Source: Kiritimatiellia bacterium (GTDB taxonomy: Bacteria; Verrucomicrobiota; Kiritimatiellia; JAQICX01). Taken from it: a stretch of 48,963 bases of DNA. This document shows, in pieces, positions 1,352-9,295 of this stretch (within the stretch, counting starts at the first letter, position 1; every line of letters starts with the position of its first letter). The stretch lies in NCBI GenBank assembly GCA_027858345.1, contig JAQICX010000119.1, positions 1-48,963 of the forward strand, read 5' to 3'. The notes under the pieces are model-generated. The model was given only the letters and a program-made list of their open reading frames with translations, did no database searches and was not told the origin of the DNA. The position numbers and the translations under genes are program-made.

Positions 1352-4033
1352 GTGAAAGAATTGGAACTTGGATTTACTCCAAACGGCACTATTTATGCTT
1401 TAAATAAAAATAGTGATTTAAAGTGGGAGCGGAGTGTTGTCGCTGCTTTTGGTGAATGTGAAAGCTATGGAATATTGTCATTGGGAAAGGTGAAGGGGCA
1501 CCACTCTTCATCGGTTAGTTTTGTTAAAGGTATTTCTAATGAGCTTTTTCGTCTATTAAGTCATATTCCTGAGGGTATGACTTTTTCGGAGACCATGGTT
1601 GCTGTTCCTGATAGTGATTTTTTTGCTAACTTAGTGATGAATGTGCCATTGATGGTTGGAGCTGAGTATGTTTCTGTTGATGCATTGGAGAATGTCTGGG
1701 AACGCCTTGTAAAATATGTTTGCATTTTGATGAAGAAGCATGATTCAATTCAGGAGTTTCTGTCGATTTATGCTCCTACGTGGAATCGGGTTGGCAGGGT
1801 TACTTTGCATCTTGCTGAAAACAAGGATGATACTGTTTTTCCATTTGCGTTCATTGCCACTTATTCTACTGGGTTGACTAAGTCAGGCAAGGTTAAACAG
1901 GTTCCGATGGAACATGCTTTGAAAGAGTATGCCAATGCTGGTAAAACTAATCAGATGTTAAACCTGCTTTCTCCATTGCAAAAAGCATCTGAAAAGAGTG
2001 AACTCATGCGGGAATTGATTGATAGTAGTGATATCTATTACCCGTTAGCCTGGTCACCCTCTGAAACCTATCATTTTATGCAGGATATTCCTATTTATGA
2101 GGATTGCGGTCTTTTAGTCAAGCTACAGGATTGGTGGAAGAAGAAAAACAAGCCTACAGTTGGTGTTGAAATTAATACAGGAAAGAAAAGTGTTTTGGGA
2201 GCAGATTCTTTAATGTCATTTTCTGTAAATGTTTCAGTGGATGGCAATGAACTGACAGCTGAAGAGGTTGATGAAATTCTTAAAACAGGCAAGATCGGGC
2301 TTTATAGAATTAAGGGCAACTGGGTTGAGGTTGATCCTGAAAAGCTTCAAATGGCTTTGGATTATTGGAAGAATCTGGAAGAAACCAGTGAAAACAATCT
2401 GGATTTTGCAACAGCAATGAGGATGTTGTCTGGAGCACCAGTTGATAGTTTTGATGAAGATGATGAGTTTGATGATGTCAGGGAATGGACTTATACCTAT
2501 GCAGGAGATGAACTTAGTGAGATATTGGCTGTATTGAATCAAGAGAAGAAAAGTAAGTTAAAGCCTCCTAAAAGCTTAAATGCCACTCTACGTCATTATC
2601 AGGTAGATGGCGTTAACTGGTTATGGACCTGTTATCGTTTGGGATTAGGTTGTTGTTTGGCAGATGATATGGGGCTGGGGAAAACAATACAAATTTTAAC
2701 TACTTTGCTACGCTACAAAGAGAAAGTTTCAGATGGAGCAACTTCTCTGTTAGTTGTGCCTGCTTCTTTGTTAGGTAACTGGAAGGCAGAGAGCGCAAAA
2801 TTTGCTCCAGATTTGAATATTGTTGTTGCCCATTCTTCGGAGTATAAACGTAGTGAACTTGACAAGATAGGGGTTCAGTTGGAAGAAAAGTTGAATAGTG
2901 TAGATTTGATTGTTACAACTTATACTATGGCAACGAAGTTGAGTTGGGTAAATGAAATTGAGTGGAATTTCTTGATTTTGGATGAAGCACAAGCTATTAA
3001 GAATCCTAAATCAAAACAGAGCAGAGGCATAAAAAAGATAAAAGCTCGTAATAGAATTGCTTTGACAGGTACTCCTGTTGAGAATAAGCTAATTGATTTA
3101 TGGAGTTTGTTTGATTTTTTGAATCCTGGATTTCTTGGAGGAATGACTGATTTTAAGAGTTATGTCGGGAAACTGTCATCAGGTACAACAGTGAATTTTG
3201 CTCCGCTACGGAAACTGATTTCCCCGTATATTTTAAGACGTATGAAAACAGATCCTAGCGTTATACCGGATTTACCGGAAAAGACAGAAGTAAAAGCTTA
3301 TTGCGGGTTGTCAAAATCACAAGTTACTCTTTATCAGCAGAATGTTAATTTTTTGAGAGATGGATTAGAAAATACTAATATGCCACCAATGCAAAGGCGT
3401 GGATTAGTTTTAAGTTGTCTTTCTCGGTTTAAGCAGATATGTAATCATCCAGCACAATTTACAGGCAACTTAGACTATGACGAGAAGCTTAGTGCAAAAT
3501 TTATGCGGTTAAAAGAAATTTGTGGGGAAATTCATTCGCGTGGGGAAAAGGTTTTAGTTTTTTCACAGTTTAAAGAGATGACCGAACCAATATCTGAATT
3601 GTTGGAAACAGTATTTGAACGTGAAGGTTTGGTTCTACACGGGAGCATAGCAGTTAAGAAACGGCAGGAAATGGTTACTGAGTTTCAAAAAGATGATGGC
3701 CCTCCATATTTTGTAATTTCGTTAAAAGCAGGAGGTTCAGGACTGAATTTGACTGCTGCGTCTCACGTTATTCATTTTGACAGGTGGTGGAATCCAGCTG
3801 TGGAAAATCAGGCAACAGATCGAGCATTTAGAATTGGGCAGAAACGAAATGTAATCGTTCACAAATTTGTAACCCGTGGTACTATTGAGGAAAAGATAGA
3901 CAAACTTCTTGAAGAAAAAAAGCACATGGCTAATCAAATTTTAAGTGATGCCGCTGAATTTAATTTCACCGAGATGAGTAATAGTGAGATTATAGATATG
4001 GTAACTTTAAACATTCATAAAAGTGAGGTTTAA
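1352..4033 (+). CDS. SNF2-family DNA helicase/translocase
   Basis: An 893-residue SNF2/HepA-like double-stranded DNA translocase. The N-terminal 390 residues include the bacterial SNF2-associated region (DUF3670-like). The ATPase core follows: motif I 'DDMGLGKTIQ' near residue 445, motif II 'DEAQ' near 543, 'LTGTPVENK' (motif III), and a C-terminal helicase lobe ending in motif VI 'QATDRAFRIGQKR' near 820. The GTG start at 1352 has aggtaagg upstream. The gene is 2 bp from the SWIM-domain gene, a pairing common in bacteria. The exact role (repair, transcription recycling or defence) is not shown by the sequence. Confidence 0.93.
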   Translation: MKELELGFTPNGTIYALNKNSDLKWERSVVAAFGECESYGILSLGKVKGHHSSSVSFVKGISNELFRLLSHIPEGMTFSETMVAVPDSDFFANLVMNVPLMVGAEYVSVDALENVWERLVKYVCILMKKHDSIQEFLSIYAPTWNRVGRVTLHLAENKDDTVFPFAFIATYSTGLTKSGKVKQVPMEHALKEYANAGKTNQMLNLLSPLQKASEKSELMRELIDSSDIYYPLAWSPSETYHFMQDIPIYEDCGLLVKLQDWWKKKNKPTVGVEINTGKKSVLGADSLMSFSVNVSVDGNELTAEEVDEILKTGKIGLYRIKGNWVEVDPEKLQMALDYWKNLEETSENNLDFATAMRMLSGAPVDSFDEDDEFDDVREWTYTYAGDELSEILAVLNQEKKSKLKPPKSLNATLRHYQVDGVNWLWTCYRLGLGCCLADDMGLGKTIQILTTLLRYKEKVSDGATSLLVVPASLLGNWKAESAKFAPDLNIVVAHSSEYKRSELDKIGVQLEEKLNSVDLIVTTYTMATKLSWVNEIEWNFLILDEAQAIKNPKSKQSRGIKKIKARNRIALTGTPVENKLIDLWSLFDFLNPGFLGGMTDFKSYVGKLSSGTTVNFAPLRKLISPYILRRMKTDPSVIPDLPEKTEVKAYCGLSKSQVTLYQQNVNFLRDGLENTNMPPMQRRGLVLSCLSRFKQICNHPAQFTGNLDYDEKLSAKFMRLKEICGEIHSRGEKVLVFSQFKEMTEPISELLETVFEREGLVLHGSIAVKKRQEMVTEFQKDDGPPYFVISLKAGGSGLNLTAASHVIHFDRWWNPAVENQATDRAFRIGQKRNVIVHKFVTRGTIEEKIDKLLEEKKHMANQILSDAAEFNFTEMSNSEIIDMVTLNIHKSEV

Positions 4034-4035
4034 TT

Positions 4036-4752
4036 ATGGCGAGAAGACGTTATACCAGTTATTATAAGCCACAGCCAACAGCATCGGAACGTAGAGAAAA
4101 ATCACAGAAGCATCAGGAAAAGCTTCGAGAAACGGGTGAAGATATTAAGCCTGTTATTATTGAAGGTAGAAAAATTACTAATACGTTCTGGGGCGATGCG
4201 TGGTGCAGGCAGATGGAGTCATTCAGTGATTATTCTAATCGTTTACCACGCGGTCGCTCTTATGTTCGTCATGGTACAGTTTGTCATTTGGAAATATCAC
4301 CTCAGAATGTGAAAGCTCTGGTGTCGGGAAGCAAAATCTATGAAGTCAATATTAAAATTAAACCATATTCAAAGCAGAAATGGAAAACACTTAGAAATAA
4401 ATGTCAAGGGAAAATATCGTCTCTGGTTGCGCTTTTAAAAGGTGAATTGTCTGAAGAGATTATGGAGTTGGTAACAGAACCAGATAGTGGGTTATTTCCT
4501 CAAGTAAAAGAGATTGCTTATGGCTGTAGTTGTCCTGATTGGGCAAGTATGTGTAAGCATATTGCAGCTGTTCTTTATGGAATAGGAAAGCGCCTTGATG
4601 AAGAACCTGAATTACTGTTTGTTTTGCGAGGTGTGGATTATAAGGAGTTGGTTGATTCTGATATAAATGTCACAAATATCACTAAAAGTGGAAGTAGTTC
4701 CCGTCGTCGCCGCTTTACAAAGAAACAGCTTGGTGAACTTTTTGATATTTAA
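4036..4752 (+). CDS. SWIM zinc-finger protein
   Basis: A 238-residue protein with a SWIM zinc finger (C-x-C-x6-C-x-H in 'YGCSCPDWASMCKHIAAVLY') near residues 158-177. The N-terminus is basic and the C-terminal tail is rich in Ser and Arg, so nucleic-acid binding is likely. SWIM proteins of this type are regularly encoded beside SNF2 helicases and are thought to act with them. The two genes here are separated by 2 bp, and the ribosome-binding site lies in the end of the helicase gene (gtgagg). No catalytic domain is visible. Confidence 0.88.
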   Translation: MARRRYTSYYKPQPTASERREKSQKHQEKLRETGEDIKPVIIEGRKITNTFWGDAWCRQMESFSDYSNRLPRGRSYVRHGTVCHLEISPQNVKALVSGSKIYEVNIKIKPYSKQKWKTLRNKCQGKISSLVALLKGELSEEIMELVTEPDSGLFPQVKEIAYGCSCPDWASMCKHIAAVLYGIGKRLDEEPELLFVLRGVDYKELVDSDINVTNITKSGSSSRRRRFTKKQLGELFDI

Positions 4753-5552: not shown

Positions 5553-6476
5553 CTAGATTTCGGTGTCGATATCGATGCCGAATAGCTGTAGCAGCCCTTC
5601 AAGTTCTTCGTTTGAGTAATACTCAATTTCGATGGAGCCAGGTTTTTTCTTGCCATTTGCTTTGGTTTCAACAGAATTGATTCTGACAGCAGTACCAAAG
5701 TGACCATGAAGTCTGTCAGATAGGTCATTAAGATATGTTATCGGCAAGTCTGGGTGGCTTGGACTTTTCATTTTTGGTCTGGTCAGTTGTTTCTTGATAT
5801 ACTTTTCAAGTTGACGAACCGTGAAGTTTTGTTTGATGGTTTCATATGCAAATGCAATTTGGTCTGCAACGCTTCCCACACCTGAAAGTACTTTTGCATG
5901 TCCAGTTGTCAGTTTTCCATCTTCAATAAGATCAATTATTTCTTCAGGAAGATTTAGTAGACGAAGTGTGTTAGCCACAGATGCTCTGCCTATTCCCATT
6001 TTTACAGAAATCTGCTCTTGTGTCATATTGAATTTTTCTGCAAGAATTTGATAGCCTTTAGCAACTTCGACAATGTTAAGGTCTTCTCTCTGAAGGTTTT
6101 CAATAAGGGCAAGTTCTAATGATGTGTTGTCATCAGCATCCATCAGAATTATTGGCACTTTTTTAAGTCCAGCTTTCTGTGCAGCTTTGAAACGTCTTTC
6201 ACCGGCGATAAGTTCGTATTTGTCTTTGACTTGGCGGATAAGTAGGGGTTGCAGCACTCCGTGCTCTTTAATTGAGGCTGCTAGCTCTTCAAGGGCCTGC
6301 TCGTTAAAATTGGTTCGTGGTTGCCATGAGTTTTTCTTTATTTTATACACAGGAAGAGTTGTTAAAGTGTGTTCCCTTTTGCTTTCAACCTTTGGCGAAG
6401 TTTTGACTACTTCTGTGTTTTTGATTTCATTCTGAATTAAACTTCCTAAACCTCGTCCTAAGTTTTTTTTTGTCAT
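5553..6476 (-). CDS. parB: Chromosome-partitioning protein ParB (CTPase, parS-binding)
   Basis: A 307-residue ParB/Spo0J. Order of parts: an N-terminal 'KKNLGRGLGSLI' ParA-contacting motif (residues 3-14), the ParB/Srx CTPase domain with 'GERRFKA' (92-98) and 'ENLQREDLN' (126-134), a helix-turn-helix around 150-172 (TQEQISVKMGIGRASVANT), and a C-terminal dimerisation region. It would bind parS, spread as a CTP-dependent clamp and direct chromosome segregation. It lies 25 bp downstream of two bactofilin genes on the same strand and has no adjacent parA in the window. No perfect parS site was noticed. Confidence 0.95.
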   Translation of the reverse strand: MTKKNLGRGLGSLIQNEIKNTEVVKTSPKVESKREHTLTTLPVYKIKKNSWQPRTNFNEQALEELAASIKEHGVLQPLLIRQVKDKYELIAGERRFKAAQKAGLKKVPIILMDADDNTSLELALIENLQREDLNIVEVAKGYQILAEKFNMTQEQISVKMGIGRASVANTLRLLNLPEEIIDLIEDGKLTTGHAKVLSGVGSVADQIAFAYETIKQNFTVRQLEKYIKKQLTRPKMKSPSHPDLPITYLNDLSDRLHGHFGTAVRINSVETKANGKKKPGSIEIEYYSNEELEGLLQLFGIDIDTEI

Positions 6477-6501
6477 TTTTCTATTCCTGTTTTATAAAAT
6501 A

Positions 6502-7221
6502 TTAACCAATTTCTAAATCCGCAAGAAGACCTGCTCCATCTTCAATAATTAATGTCTTTGCCTTTATTGAACCAATAAAAAAGCCGGTTGATACAATTTT
6601 CACTGTTCCAGAGGATACAATATTAGCCTTCATCTTTCCTCTTATCTCAATGTTTTTGTGCTTTAATTCTTCTTTTAAGGATAAAATACTATTTCCTTCA
6701 CCAATAATCAAGTTGTTTGTGTCAATTTTATCAATATCAAATTCTGCTCCTCCGAATATTTCGACGCTAACATTTGCAAAAGCAGTTGAATTGATAAGTT
6801 TACCTTTTAAGACAATCGTGTTAGCCTTGATTGATGAATCCTTGATTATACCAGCTGTGTTAATCTCAACGACTCCAACAGTTGCTATATCCTTGATCTT
6901 TTCGCTATTGATTATGTAATCTTTTACATCAAGAGACACCTTGCACTTCGGGCATATTATTGATGCTAATGATCCTCTTACATTGTATGTGTAGCCACAT
7001 GCATAGCACTCTATTTGGTGTAGGGTTGGTTTCGCTGTATGTGCAAAGCGAGCATCGTTTGAACTCTGTCCGACCGGTTTCACTTTTGGTGGTGCAGCGG
7101 GATGTTGTTCATTGGACACAGCACGCCCTTTGCCATCTTTTTTGCTTTTTTCTTCAGCAGATTTTTTGACGGCTTGAATCGATGTGTATGAATTAATTAC
7201 ATGTGATGATTTTGGAGGCAT
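6502..7221 (-). CDS. Bactofilin-domain protein with N-terminal zinc ribbon
   Basis: A 239-residue protein. Residues 1-65 are low-complexity, charged and proline-rich. Residues 70-95 form a zinc ribbon with Cys72, Cys75, Cys90 and Cys93 (CYAC...CPKC). From about 105 to the end are the short repeating beta-strand units of a bactofilin (for example 'GVVEINTAGIIKDSSIKANT'). Bactofilins polymerise into filaments that scaffold cell-wall enzymes or the ParABS machinery. It lies between another bactofilin gene (28 bp) and parB (25 bp), so the three probably form one operon. The zinc ribbon is an unusual addition and its ligand is unknown. Confidence 0.85.
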   Translation of the reverse strand: MPPKSSHVINSYTSIQAVKKSAEEKSKKDGKGRAVSNEQHPAAPPKVKPVGQSSNDARFAHTAKPTLHQIECYACGYTYNVRGSLASIICPKCKVSLDVKDYIINSEKIKDIATVGVVEINTAGIIKDSSIKANTIVLKGKLINSTAFANVSVEIFGGAEFDIDKIDTNNLIIGEGNSILSLKEELKHKNIEIRGKMKANIVSSGTVKIVSTGFFIGSIKAKTLIIEDGAGLLADLEIG

Positions 7222-7249
7222 CTTTTTTATTACCAGCTAAAAATATATT

Positions 7250-7699
7250 CTATTTGCGATTGAAAAATCCGTTTTTATTTCCATTATCAGGATTAGAAGA
7301 TAATGCATCTGACTCTTCATCTGACTCTTCATCGCTATTTTCAGATGATTTAGCTTGTTTTGGTGGAAGAGATGTTGTGTCTGGTGTAATTTCAGCATGA
7401 CCTGTAAATGTTACCCCATCTTCAACTGTAAGCCTTTTAGACTTGATGTCACCTGAAATCTTTGCACCTGTTTTGAATTCAATCTTATCGTTTGAGCTTA
7501 TGTTGCCAGTTACGTTGCCAAGAATTGTTGTGCTTGCTGATTCAATGTTACCTTTGATTGTTGCACCTGCACCAATTTCACTTGTTTCTTTGCATGTTAG
7601 ATCTCCTGTCAAGGAACCATTTATTTGGATGTTTCCTTTTGATGTGATAGTTCCTTCAATAGAAACATCTGTCGATATTACTGTATTTGCGTCGTTCAT
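7250..7699 (-). CDS. Bactofilin (polymer-forming cytoskeletal protein)
   Basis: A 149-residue protein of normal bactofilin length. The core is a beta-helix of repeating strands (residues 8-105, for example 'VSIEGTITSKGNIQINGSLTGDL'). The tail is acidic with a short internal duplication (DEESDEES), then basic and asparagine-rich, ending 'NGFFNRK'. It is the first gene of the probable bactofilin-bactofilin-parB operon, with ribosome-binding site agagga before the start. By analogy with Myxococcus BacNOP, it may position the ParB-bound origin; that is inference. Confidence 0.92.
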   Translation of the reverse strand: MNDANTVISTDVSIEGTITSKGNIQINGSLTGDLTCKETSEIGAGATIKGNIESASTTILGNVTGNISSNDKIEFKTGAKISGDIKSKRLTVEDGVTFTGHAEITPDTTSLPPKQAKSSENSDEESDEESDALSSNPDNGNKNGFFNRK

Positions 7700-8239: not shown

Positions 8240-9295
8240 CTACGGTTGCATACCTGAACGATCAAGACCAGCTGTTTCTTCAAAACCAAACAAAACATTC
8301 ATGTTCTGCATTGCAGCCCCTGCTTGTCCTTTCATTAGATTGTCTATATAAGAGACAACTCTCAAAATGCCTGTTCGCTCATCAACAGATACTGTTAAGT
8401 TACAGAAGTTTGTGCAGCGAACATGATGAGAACCAATTGTTTTGTTTTTATCATAGACTCTAACAAATGGTTCATTTTTGTAGAAGTCTCTATAAAGCTC
8501 TAGAACCTTTTCTTCAGTCACTCCTGGGGCAACACGCCCATATAGAGTTGACATAATGCCACGGCATATTGGAAGCACCTGAGCTGTGAAAGTAAGTGTA
8601 ACCTCTGTATTTGCCAACAACCCAAGTTCTCTTTCAACTTCACATACATGTTGATGACCTGTAAGACGGTAGGCATTCATGTTTTCATATCTGTTTGGAT
8701 AATGGTGAAGTGGATTTGGTGTTTTTCCTGCACCTGATACTCCTGTTTTGCAGTCGCATATAATTCCCTTTAGATCAATAATGTTTGCCTTGGCAGCTGG
8801 TGCCAGTCCCAGAATACAGCTCACGGCAAAACATCCCGGATTTCCTGCTAGATTTGAACCTTGAAGTTCATCTCTATGTAGTTCCGGTAAGCCGTAAACA
8901 GATTCAGGAAGCAGGCCAGGGGAGTCATGACTTGTTTCTTTGTCAAGTCTCCTTGCGTATTCAGCATAGCTATCAACAGAATTGAATCTGAAGTCACCAC
9001 TGAAATCAATTACTTTTGCACCTTTGTCAAGTTCTGCCTGGGCTAGCTTCATGCCAACTCTGTCAGGCGTTGACATAAAGACAACATCACGAGGCTCTTG
9101 AGCTTCTGGCGTTTCGGCATCAATGATGTCCATGTTGCAGAATCCATCCAGATGTGGATGCAGAACGGCAATGTTCTCTCCAGTACTTCCCGGACTGATC
9201 AATGTCTTAACTTCAACCTCTGGATGAGATAGCAGCAGTTCCAAAATTCCAACTCCGCCATATCCACCAGCTCCAATTATTTTTGCCGTGATCAT
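8240..9295 (-). CDS. argC: N-acetyl-gamma-glutamyl-phosphate reductase
   Basis: A 351-residue ArgC, the NADPH-dependent third step of arginine synthesis in the cytoplasm. It has an N-terminal Rossmann motif 'GAGGYGGVGILEL', the catalytic cysteine at 155 in 'GNPGCFAV', the loop 'KTGVSGAGKTPN', and the catalytic-site histidine region 'GHQHVCEVE'. Its length is normal. It follows dapL by 11 bp in the same direction. The stop codon overlaps the edge of a dispersed hairpin (8226-8240), so the last residues border repeat DNA. Confidence 0.95.
   Translation of the reverse strand: MITAKIIGAGGYGGVGILELLLSHPEVEVKTLISPGSTGENIAVLHPHLDGFCNMDIIDAETPEAQEPRDVVFMSTPDRVGMKLAQAELDKGAKVIDFSGDFRFNSVDSYAEYARRLDKETSHDSPGLLPESVYGLPELHRDELQGSNLAGNPGCFAVSCILGLAPAAKANIIDLKGIICDCKTGVSGAGKTPNPLHHYPNRYENMNAYRLTGHQHVCEVERELGLLANTEVTLTFTAQVLPICRGIMSTLYGRVAPGVTEEKVLELYRDFYKNEPFVRVYDKNKTIGSHHVRCTNFCNLTVSVDERTGILRVVSYIDNLMKGQAGAAMQNMNVLFGFEETAGLDRSGMQP

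Follow-up and report, generated by a model that had tools for sequence, protein, structure and literature searches.

The parB gene of the window (the whole stretch of 48,963 nt that was analysed; contig C64 of an assembly of 4.03 Mb in 256 contigs, 91% complete) stands directly behind two bactofilin genes, one of which carries a zinc ribbon. Our preferred reading, held at a probability of about 0.45, is that an ordinary ParABS system with dispersed parts has its parB co-encoded with a two-component bactofilin scaffold, on which the origin would be positioned.

Gene order and neighbourhood

The order bactofilin, zinc-ribbon bactofilin, parB, with intergenic gaps of 28 and 25 bp, had been proposed in a first-pass annotation of this DNA and is borne out by the open reading frames and by Pfam; all three genes are on the minus strand. 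The ordinary bactofilin gene, bac (7250..7699; 149 aa), matches PF04519 at E=2.2e-23 and 82.8 bits; its paralogous partner, the zinc-ribbon bactofilin gene znbac (6502..7221; 239 aa), matches the same model at E=5.2e-8 and 33.5 bits (gathering cut-off 27.9); parB (5553..6476; 307 aa) encodes a canonical chromosomal Spo0J/ParB (PF02195, 7e-34; PF17762, 4e-32; PF23552, 3e-6). The three genes probably form one transcription unit. Upstream of bac, at a distance of 540 bp, lies argC (8240..9295, minus strand), named from its semialdehyde dehydrogenase domains and from synteny. No parA was found in the neighbourhood of the window's parB, and no bactofilin in the genome beyond the window's two. A 12-bp tandem repeat within bac (window 7306-7333) encodes the acidic SDEESDEESD of the C-terminal linker.

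Elsewhere in the window, a gene for an SNF2-type helicase (recognised by eye) is followed directly by a gene for a SWIM zinc-finger protein (Pfam match just under the cut-off) at 1352-4752, and a small two-gene unit at 139-802 resembles, by eye only, a Phd-type antitoxin and PIN-type toxin pair.

ParB, ParA, and parS

ParB of the window is full-length, with ParB_N (CTPase), HTH_ParB, and the ParB_C dimer domain all above the Pfam cut-off. The motifs LGRGL (ParA contact) and GERR and ENLQR (CTPase) are present; LGRGL, GERR, and ENxxR are invariant across 20 homologues. A Soj-type ParA of 256 aa with the motif KGGVGKTT, the only one in the genome, is encoded by a stand-alone gene on another contig (G000:C178:5328-6095). 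Two perfect parS palindromes, TGTTCCACGTGGAACA, are located on contig C62: one inside mnmG (C62:12778-12793; L005, L006), where the protein sequence is MFHVEQ, and one directly behind the mnmG stop codon (C62:13936-13951; L005, L006; position by coordinate arithmetic on the locus). On the window contig, no parS was found near parB within 2 mismatches. Judged from these sequences, the system is most likely an ordinary ParABS whose three parts are dispersed: parB in the window, a stand-alone parA of the Soj type on a different contig, and parS in and beside mnmG. The earlier description of the locus as lacking ParA thus holds for the neighbourhood of parB and fails for the genome.

The comparison covered 146 genomes of one class, which was assigned to Kiritimatiellia from the ParB tree (Pontiella L164 pairs with G314 and the Kiritimatiellae MAG L199 with G074, both of this class). 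Close Soj-type ParA proteins are encoded in 134 of these genomes and close ParB proteins in 140; the exact parS sequence TGTTYCACGTGRAACA is present in 113/146, with the reversed control in one listed genome. Relatives often have two parS sites ~35-160 bp apart. Adjacency of parA and parB is rare in the class and takes the form of convergent neighbours (G047, G256).

The parA-parB operon order is usual for ParABS and is not essential to its definition. Among 60 ParB genes of other phyla (named loci), parA is directly upstream of parB in 58; among 20 loci of Verrucomicrobiota and the PVC group, some on short contigs, a parA-like frame comes within reach only in L199, where it is encoded on the other strand. 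Here the two genes are split, as they are throughout the phylum. Separate parA and parB genes are the norm in Verrucomicrobiota, an isolated parB is normal there, and the lack of an adjoining parA therefore does not hint at an unusual mechanism.

The window holds the only full-length ParB of the genome. A second parB beside parA elsewhere was considered and rejected: parA stands alone, and the other ParB_N match is a short one-domain protein of 126 aa (G000:C243:293-673; L011, L224; relatives L225-L228) with the ParB CTPase fold only and no HTH domain. Its C-terminal tail, KPTFWEKVRRFFRKLFKLES, is basic and amphipathic-looking. Close relatives occur in ~17 class genomes, and those whose sequence was inspected have a similar tail; nine of the ~17 genomes belong to the 18 with the order bac-znbac-parB. 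From its sequence the protein looks like a membrane-bound ParB-fold protein, possibly a PadC- or Noc-like adaptor.

Conservation of the linkage

In 29 of the 146 class genomes, from 16 GTDB families, parB stands directly behind bactofilin genes (coordinates compared by hand), so that the proposed order is kept in relatives. The full order bac-znbac-parB is found in 18 genomes of 13 families; bac-parB without znbac is found in 11 genomes of three families. Random placement would put a bactofilin gene adjacent to parB in an estimated ~0.3 genomes (assuming ~two bactofilin genes per 3 Mb and a distance of +/-2.5 kb, for the 87 genomes that have both genes), against the 29 observed; the order is not chance. 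The fetched linked loci are all same-strand, with gaps mostly of 10-80 bp. The usual unit reads argC - bac - (znbac) - parB - M28-family peptidase, with argC in 18 and the peptidase gene in 20 of the 27 fetched linked loci. ParB proteins of the nine fetched bac-parB loci (the 11 genomes without znbac) form one supported clade (100/97); those of the bac-znbac-parB loci are scattered over poorly resolved branches of the tree. Bactofilins were detected in 88 class genomes and not detected in the remaining 58; at two loci (L130, L131) argC, parB, and the M28 gene are kept together and the bactofilins are gone.

Beyond the class, a bactofilin gene lies within ~5 kb of parAB at 8 of the 60 ParB loci of other phyla, and directly after parB at four of these eight (Nitrospirae L177; Nitrospira L219; Gemmatimonas L179; unclassified bacterium L198). 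None of the bactofilins at these loci has a zinc ribbon. In Nitrospira (L219:4217-7296), parA-parB is followed by two ordinary bactofilin genes, a mirror arrangement of that in the window. Bactofilin genes are also known near parAB in Bdellovibrio bacteriovorus (the homologue bd3904; PMC10547168) and behind parAB in Myxococcus xanthus (bacM; PMC5703909). Adjacency by itself proves nothing; its recurrence in several phyla suggests a functional reason for the association.

The two bactofilins

Known bactofilins bind the membrane by an N-terminal MFSK-like peptide (PMC12448750). The window's bac has no N-terminal peptide of the MFxK type and ends in a C-terminal GFFNRK tail (window 7250-7300). 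An N-terminal MFSK-type start was found in 0 of 49 class bactofilins examined, some of whose start codons may be mis-set. A C-terminal aromatic residue or leucine with a basic pair is present in 25/25 parB-linked as against 12/24 unlinked class bactofilins; most bactofilins of the class end in F-x-[RK][RK]. In the class the membrane peptide appears to have moved to the C-terminus.

ZnBac consists of a short conserved N-terminal motif, a ribbon formed by C72, C75, C90, and C93 (C-x2-C-x14-C-x2-C), and a bactofilin domain at ~residues 100-239. Pfam zinc-ribbon models match it weakly (E>=8e-4); the four cysteines are invariant in 30/30 aligned homologues. Its AlphaFold2 model has a mean pLDDT of 84.8, with about 95 for the ribbon and about 95-98 for the right-handed beta-helix of stacked strands; in the PDB, the model comes closest to 6rib, the bactofilin filament of Thermus (probability 0.99, although with E=0.046). 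Of 241 genomes compared across the phylum, 68 encode proteins that match the znbac query, part of these matches being the ordinary bactofilin partner; bac-znbac pairs with the exact cysteine spacing are adjacent in ~50 genomes. A zinc-ribbon bactofilin subfamily is proposed, with CxxC-x14-CxxC preceding the bactofilin domain and with its gene adjoining that of an ordinary bactofilin; ZnBac fits this description. In the open literature searched for 'bactofilin' together with 'zinc ribbon', no description of such a protein was found.

Within the class, bac-znbac pairs that are unlinked to parB are often trailed on the same strand by a Mur ligase gene (14 loci, including L046, L048, L061, L065, L068, L070, and L071); the product scores 284-298 bits against TIGR01082 (cut-off 335) and is accordingly termed MurC-like rather than MurC. 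In another class of the phylum, the pair lies next to uvrA at nine loci. These unlinked pairs point to bac-znbac as an envelope-linked scaffold that would exist independently of parB. In an Akkermansia MAG (L210:5001-10874), the pair and parB are ~4 kb apart and on opposite strands. The zinc ribbon was also considered as a mark of parB linkage; this was rejected, unlinked pairs conserving the ribbon equally.

Proposed mechanism and alternative explanations

In the mechanism that we favour, Bac would polymerise without nucleotide and would lie on the inner membrane, held there by the F-x-R-K tail at its C-terminus instead of by the N-terminal MFSK peptide that is usual in bactofilins. ZnBac would co-assemble with Bac, and its zinc ribbon, exposed on the filament, would serve client proteins as a docking site. 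Through co-expression, the scaffold would give a positional platform both to the origin complex (clamps of ParB-CTP at parS) and to envelope enzymes, with ParA still doing the moving. That the bactofilin pair is a membrane scaffold is probable, and that ParB is positioned by it is plausible; the least certain step is that ParB is physically coupled to the scaffold, whether directly or via an adaptor. This reading is favoured by the linkage over 16 families with its short gaps, by the presence of ParA and parS in this genome and through most of the class, by the invariant ParB motifs, by the retention of bac-znbac across the phylum with exact cysteine spacing, by the recurrence of bactofilin genes near parB in other phyla, and by the case of M. 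xanthus, in which a bactofilin scaffold does position ParABS (PMC5703909).

Several of the observations that weigh against this reading are also those that favour a mere sharing of neighbourhood, in which a scaffold for the envelope or cell shape would be encoded in one operon with parB because this times expression or because the gene order was inherited, with no contact to ParB-parS. BacM of M. xanthus, though linked, has no effect on ParAB positioning (PMC5703909); ParB is found in 140/146 class genomes although 58/146 are without a detected bactofilin, and is retained at L130 and L131 after bactofilin loss; and the unlinked pairs beside the MurC-like ligase speak for a tie to the envelope rather than to segregation, and those beside uvrA in another class likewise favour a shared neighbourhood. 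The argC and M28 peptidase genes of the unit are unrelated genes without known segregation role, and a housekeeping super-operon could therefore explain the order. One inherited order does not, however, explain why the adjacency recurs across phyla in differing orders (parA-parB-bac, bac-parB). A shared neighbourhood alone is taken as a serious possibility, a little short of even, and coupling of ParB to the scaffold is rated slightly above it.

ZnBac might instead bind DNA or ParB through its ribbon and, as an adaptor, fasten the origin to the filament, a one-protein equivalent of PadC. The invariant and confidently modelled ribbon cysteines, together with a gene order that places znbac between scaffold and ParB, agree with such a role; yet the ribbon's equal conservation away from parB, the clade of nine fetched loci in which bac-parB linkage does without znbac, and the fact that zinc ribbons bind proteins, RNA, and DNA alike make it improbable. 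A wider proposal, in which zinc-ribbon bactofilins throughout the phylum co-polymerise with a bactofilin anchored to the membrane by its C-terminus, and the ribbon, in Kiritimatiellia, binds ParB, holding the origin on a membrane filament while a separate ParA moves it, is regarded as doubtful. The first-pass annotation had taken the missing parA as a sign of filament-anchored segregation that works without ParA. Apart from the lack of parA beside parB, the data run against this: a stand-alone Soj-type parA is present here and in 134/146 class genomes, parS was located in the genome, the ParA-contact motif of ParB is invariant, and the parA/parB split is general in the phylum, including lineages without bactofilins. 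ParA-free segregation is rejected as close to excluded.

Comparison with known systems

Adjacency of bactofilin genes and parB was already known from single model species, in one of which the linked bactofilin is idle in ParABS positioning. Shown here are its conservation over 16 families of one class and its recurrence in several other phyla, so that comparison can be used to test for a functional link. The analysis also brings out a family of zinc-ribbon bactofilins that is conserved across Verrucomicrobiota, and the phylum-wide separation of parA from parB. Neither Verrucomicrobia nor Kiritimatiellota is named in the main text of a survey of the ParB-CTPase fold. If ParB is indeed held by the scaffold, placement of the origin by a bactofilin cytoskeleton would have a second, independent example.

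With Caulobacter BacA (PMC12448750), Bac shares the family of bactofilin beta-helix polymers and a peptide of hydrophobic and basic residues; in BacA this is the N-terminal membrane peptide MFSKQAKS, whereas the similar F-x-R-K of Bac is C-terminal and its role putative. The parA-parB-bd3904 neighbourhood of B. bacteriovorus (PMC10547168) likewise has a bactofilin homologue near parAB, but with parA in the operon, a single bactofilin, and the opposite order. In M. xanthus parAB-bacM (PMC5703909), as in the window, a bactofilin gene directly adjoins the chromosomal parB; there bacM follows an intact parAB and has a role in cell shape, whereas in the window parB comes after the bactofilin genes, parA lies elsewhere in the genome, and a zinc ribbon is present on one of the two bactofilins. 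The analogy with Myxococcus drawn earlier is upheld in that BacNOP with PadC position ParABS, and is weaker than had been claimed in that the BacNOP genes lie apart from parAB and their products work through PadC, the linked BacM being the one without effect (PMC5703909). No PadC-like gene was found in the window's bactofilin-parB operon. BacNOP-PadC (PMC5703909) nevertheless offers the model for filaments that hold ParABS, a multi-bactofilin scaffold being co-encoded with a ParB-fold protein in both cases; PadC is a ParB-like adaptor and not a parS-binding ParB, whereas the neighbour of the bactofilins in the window is a canonical ParB.
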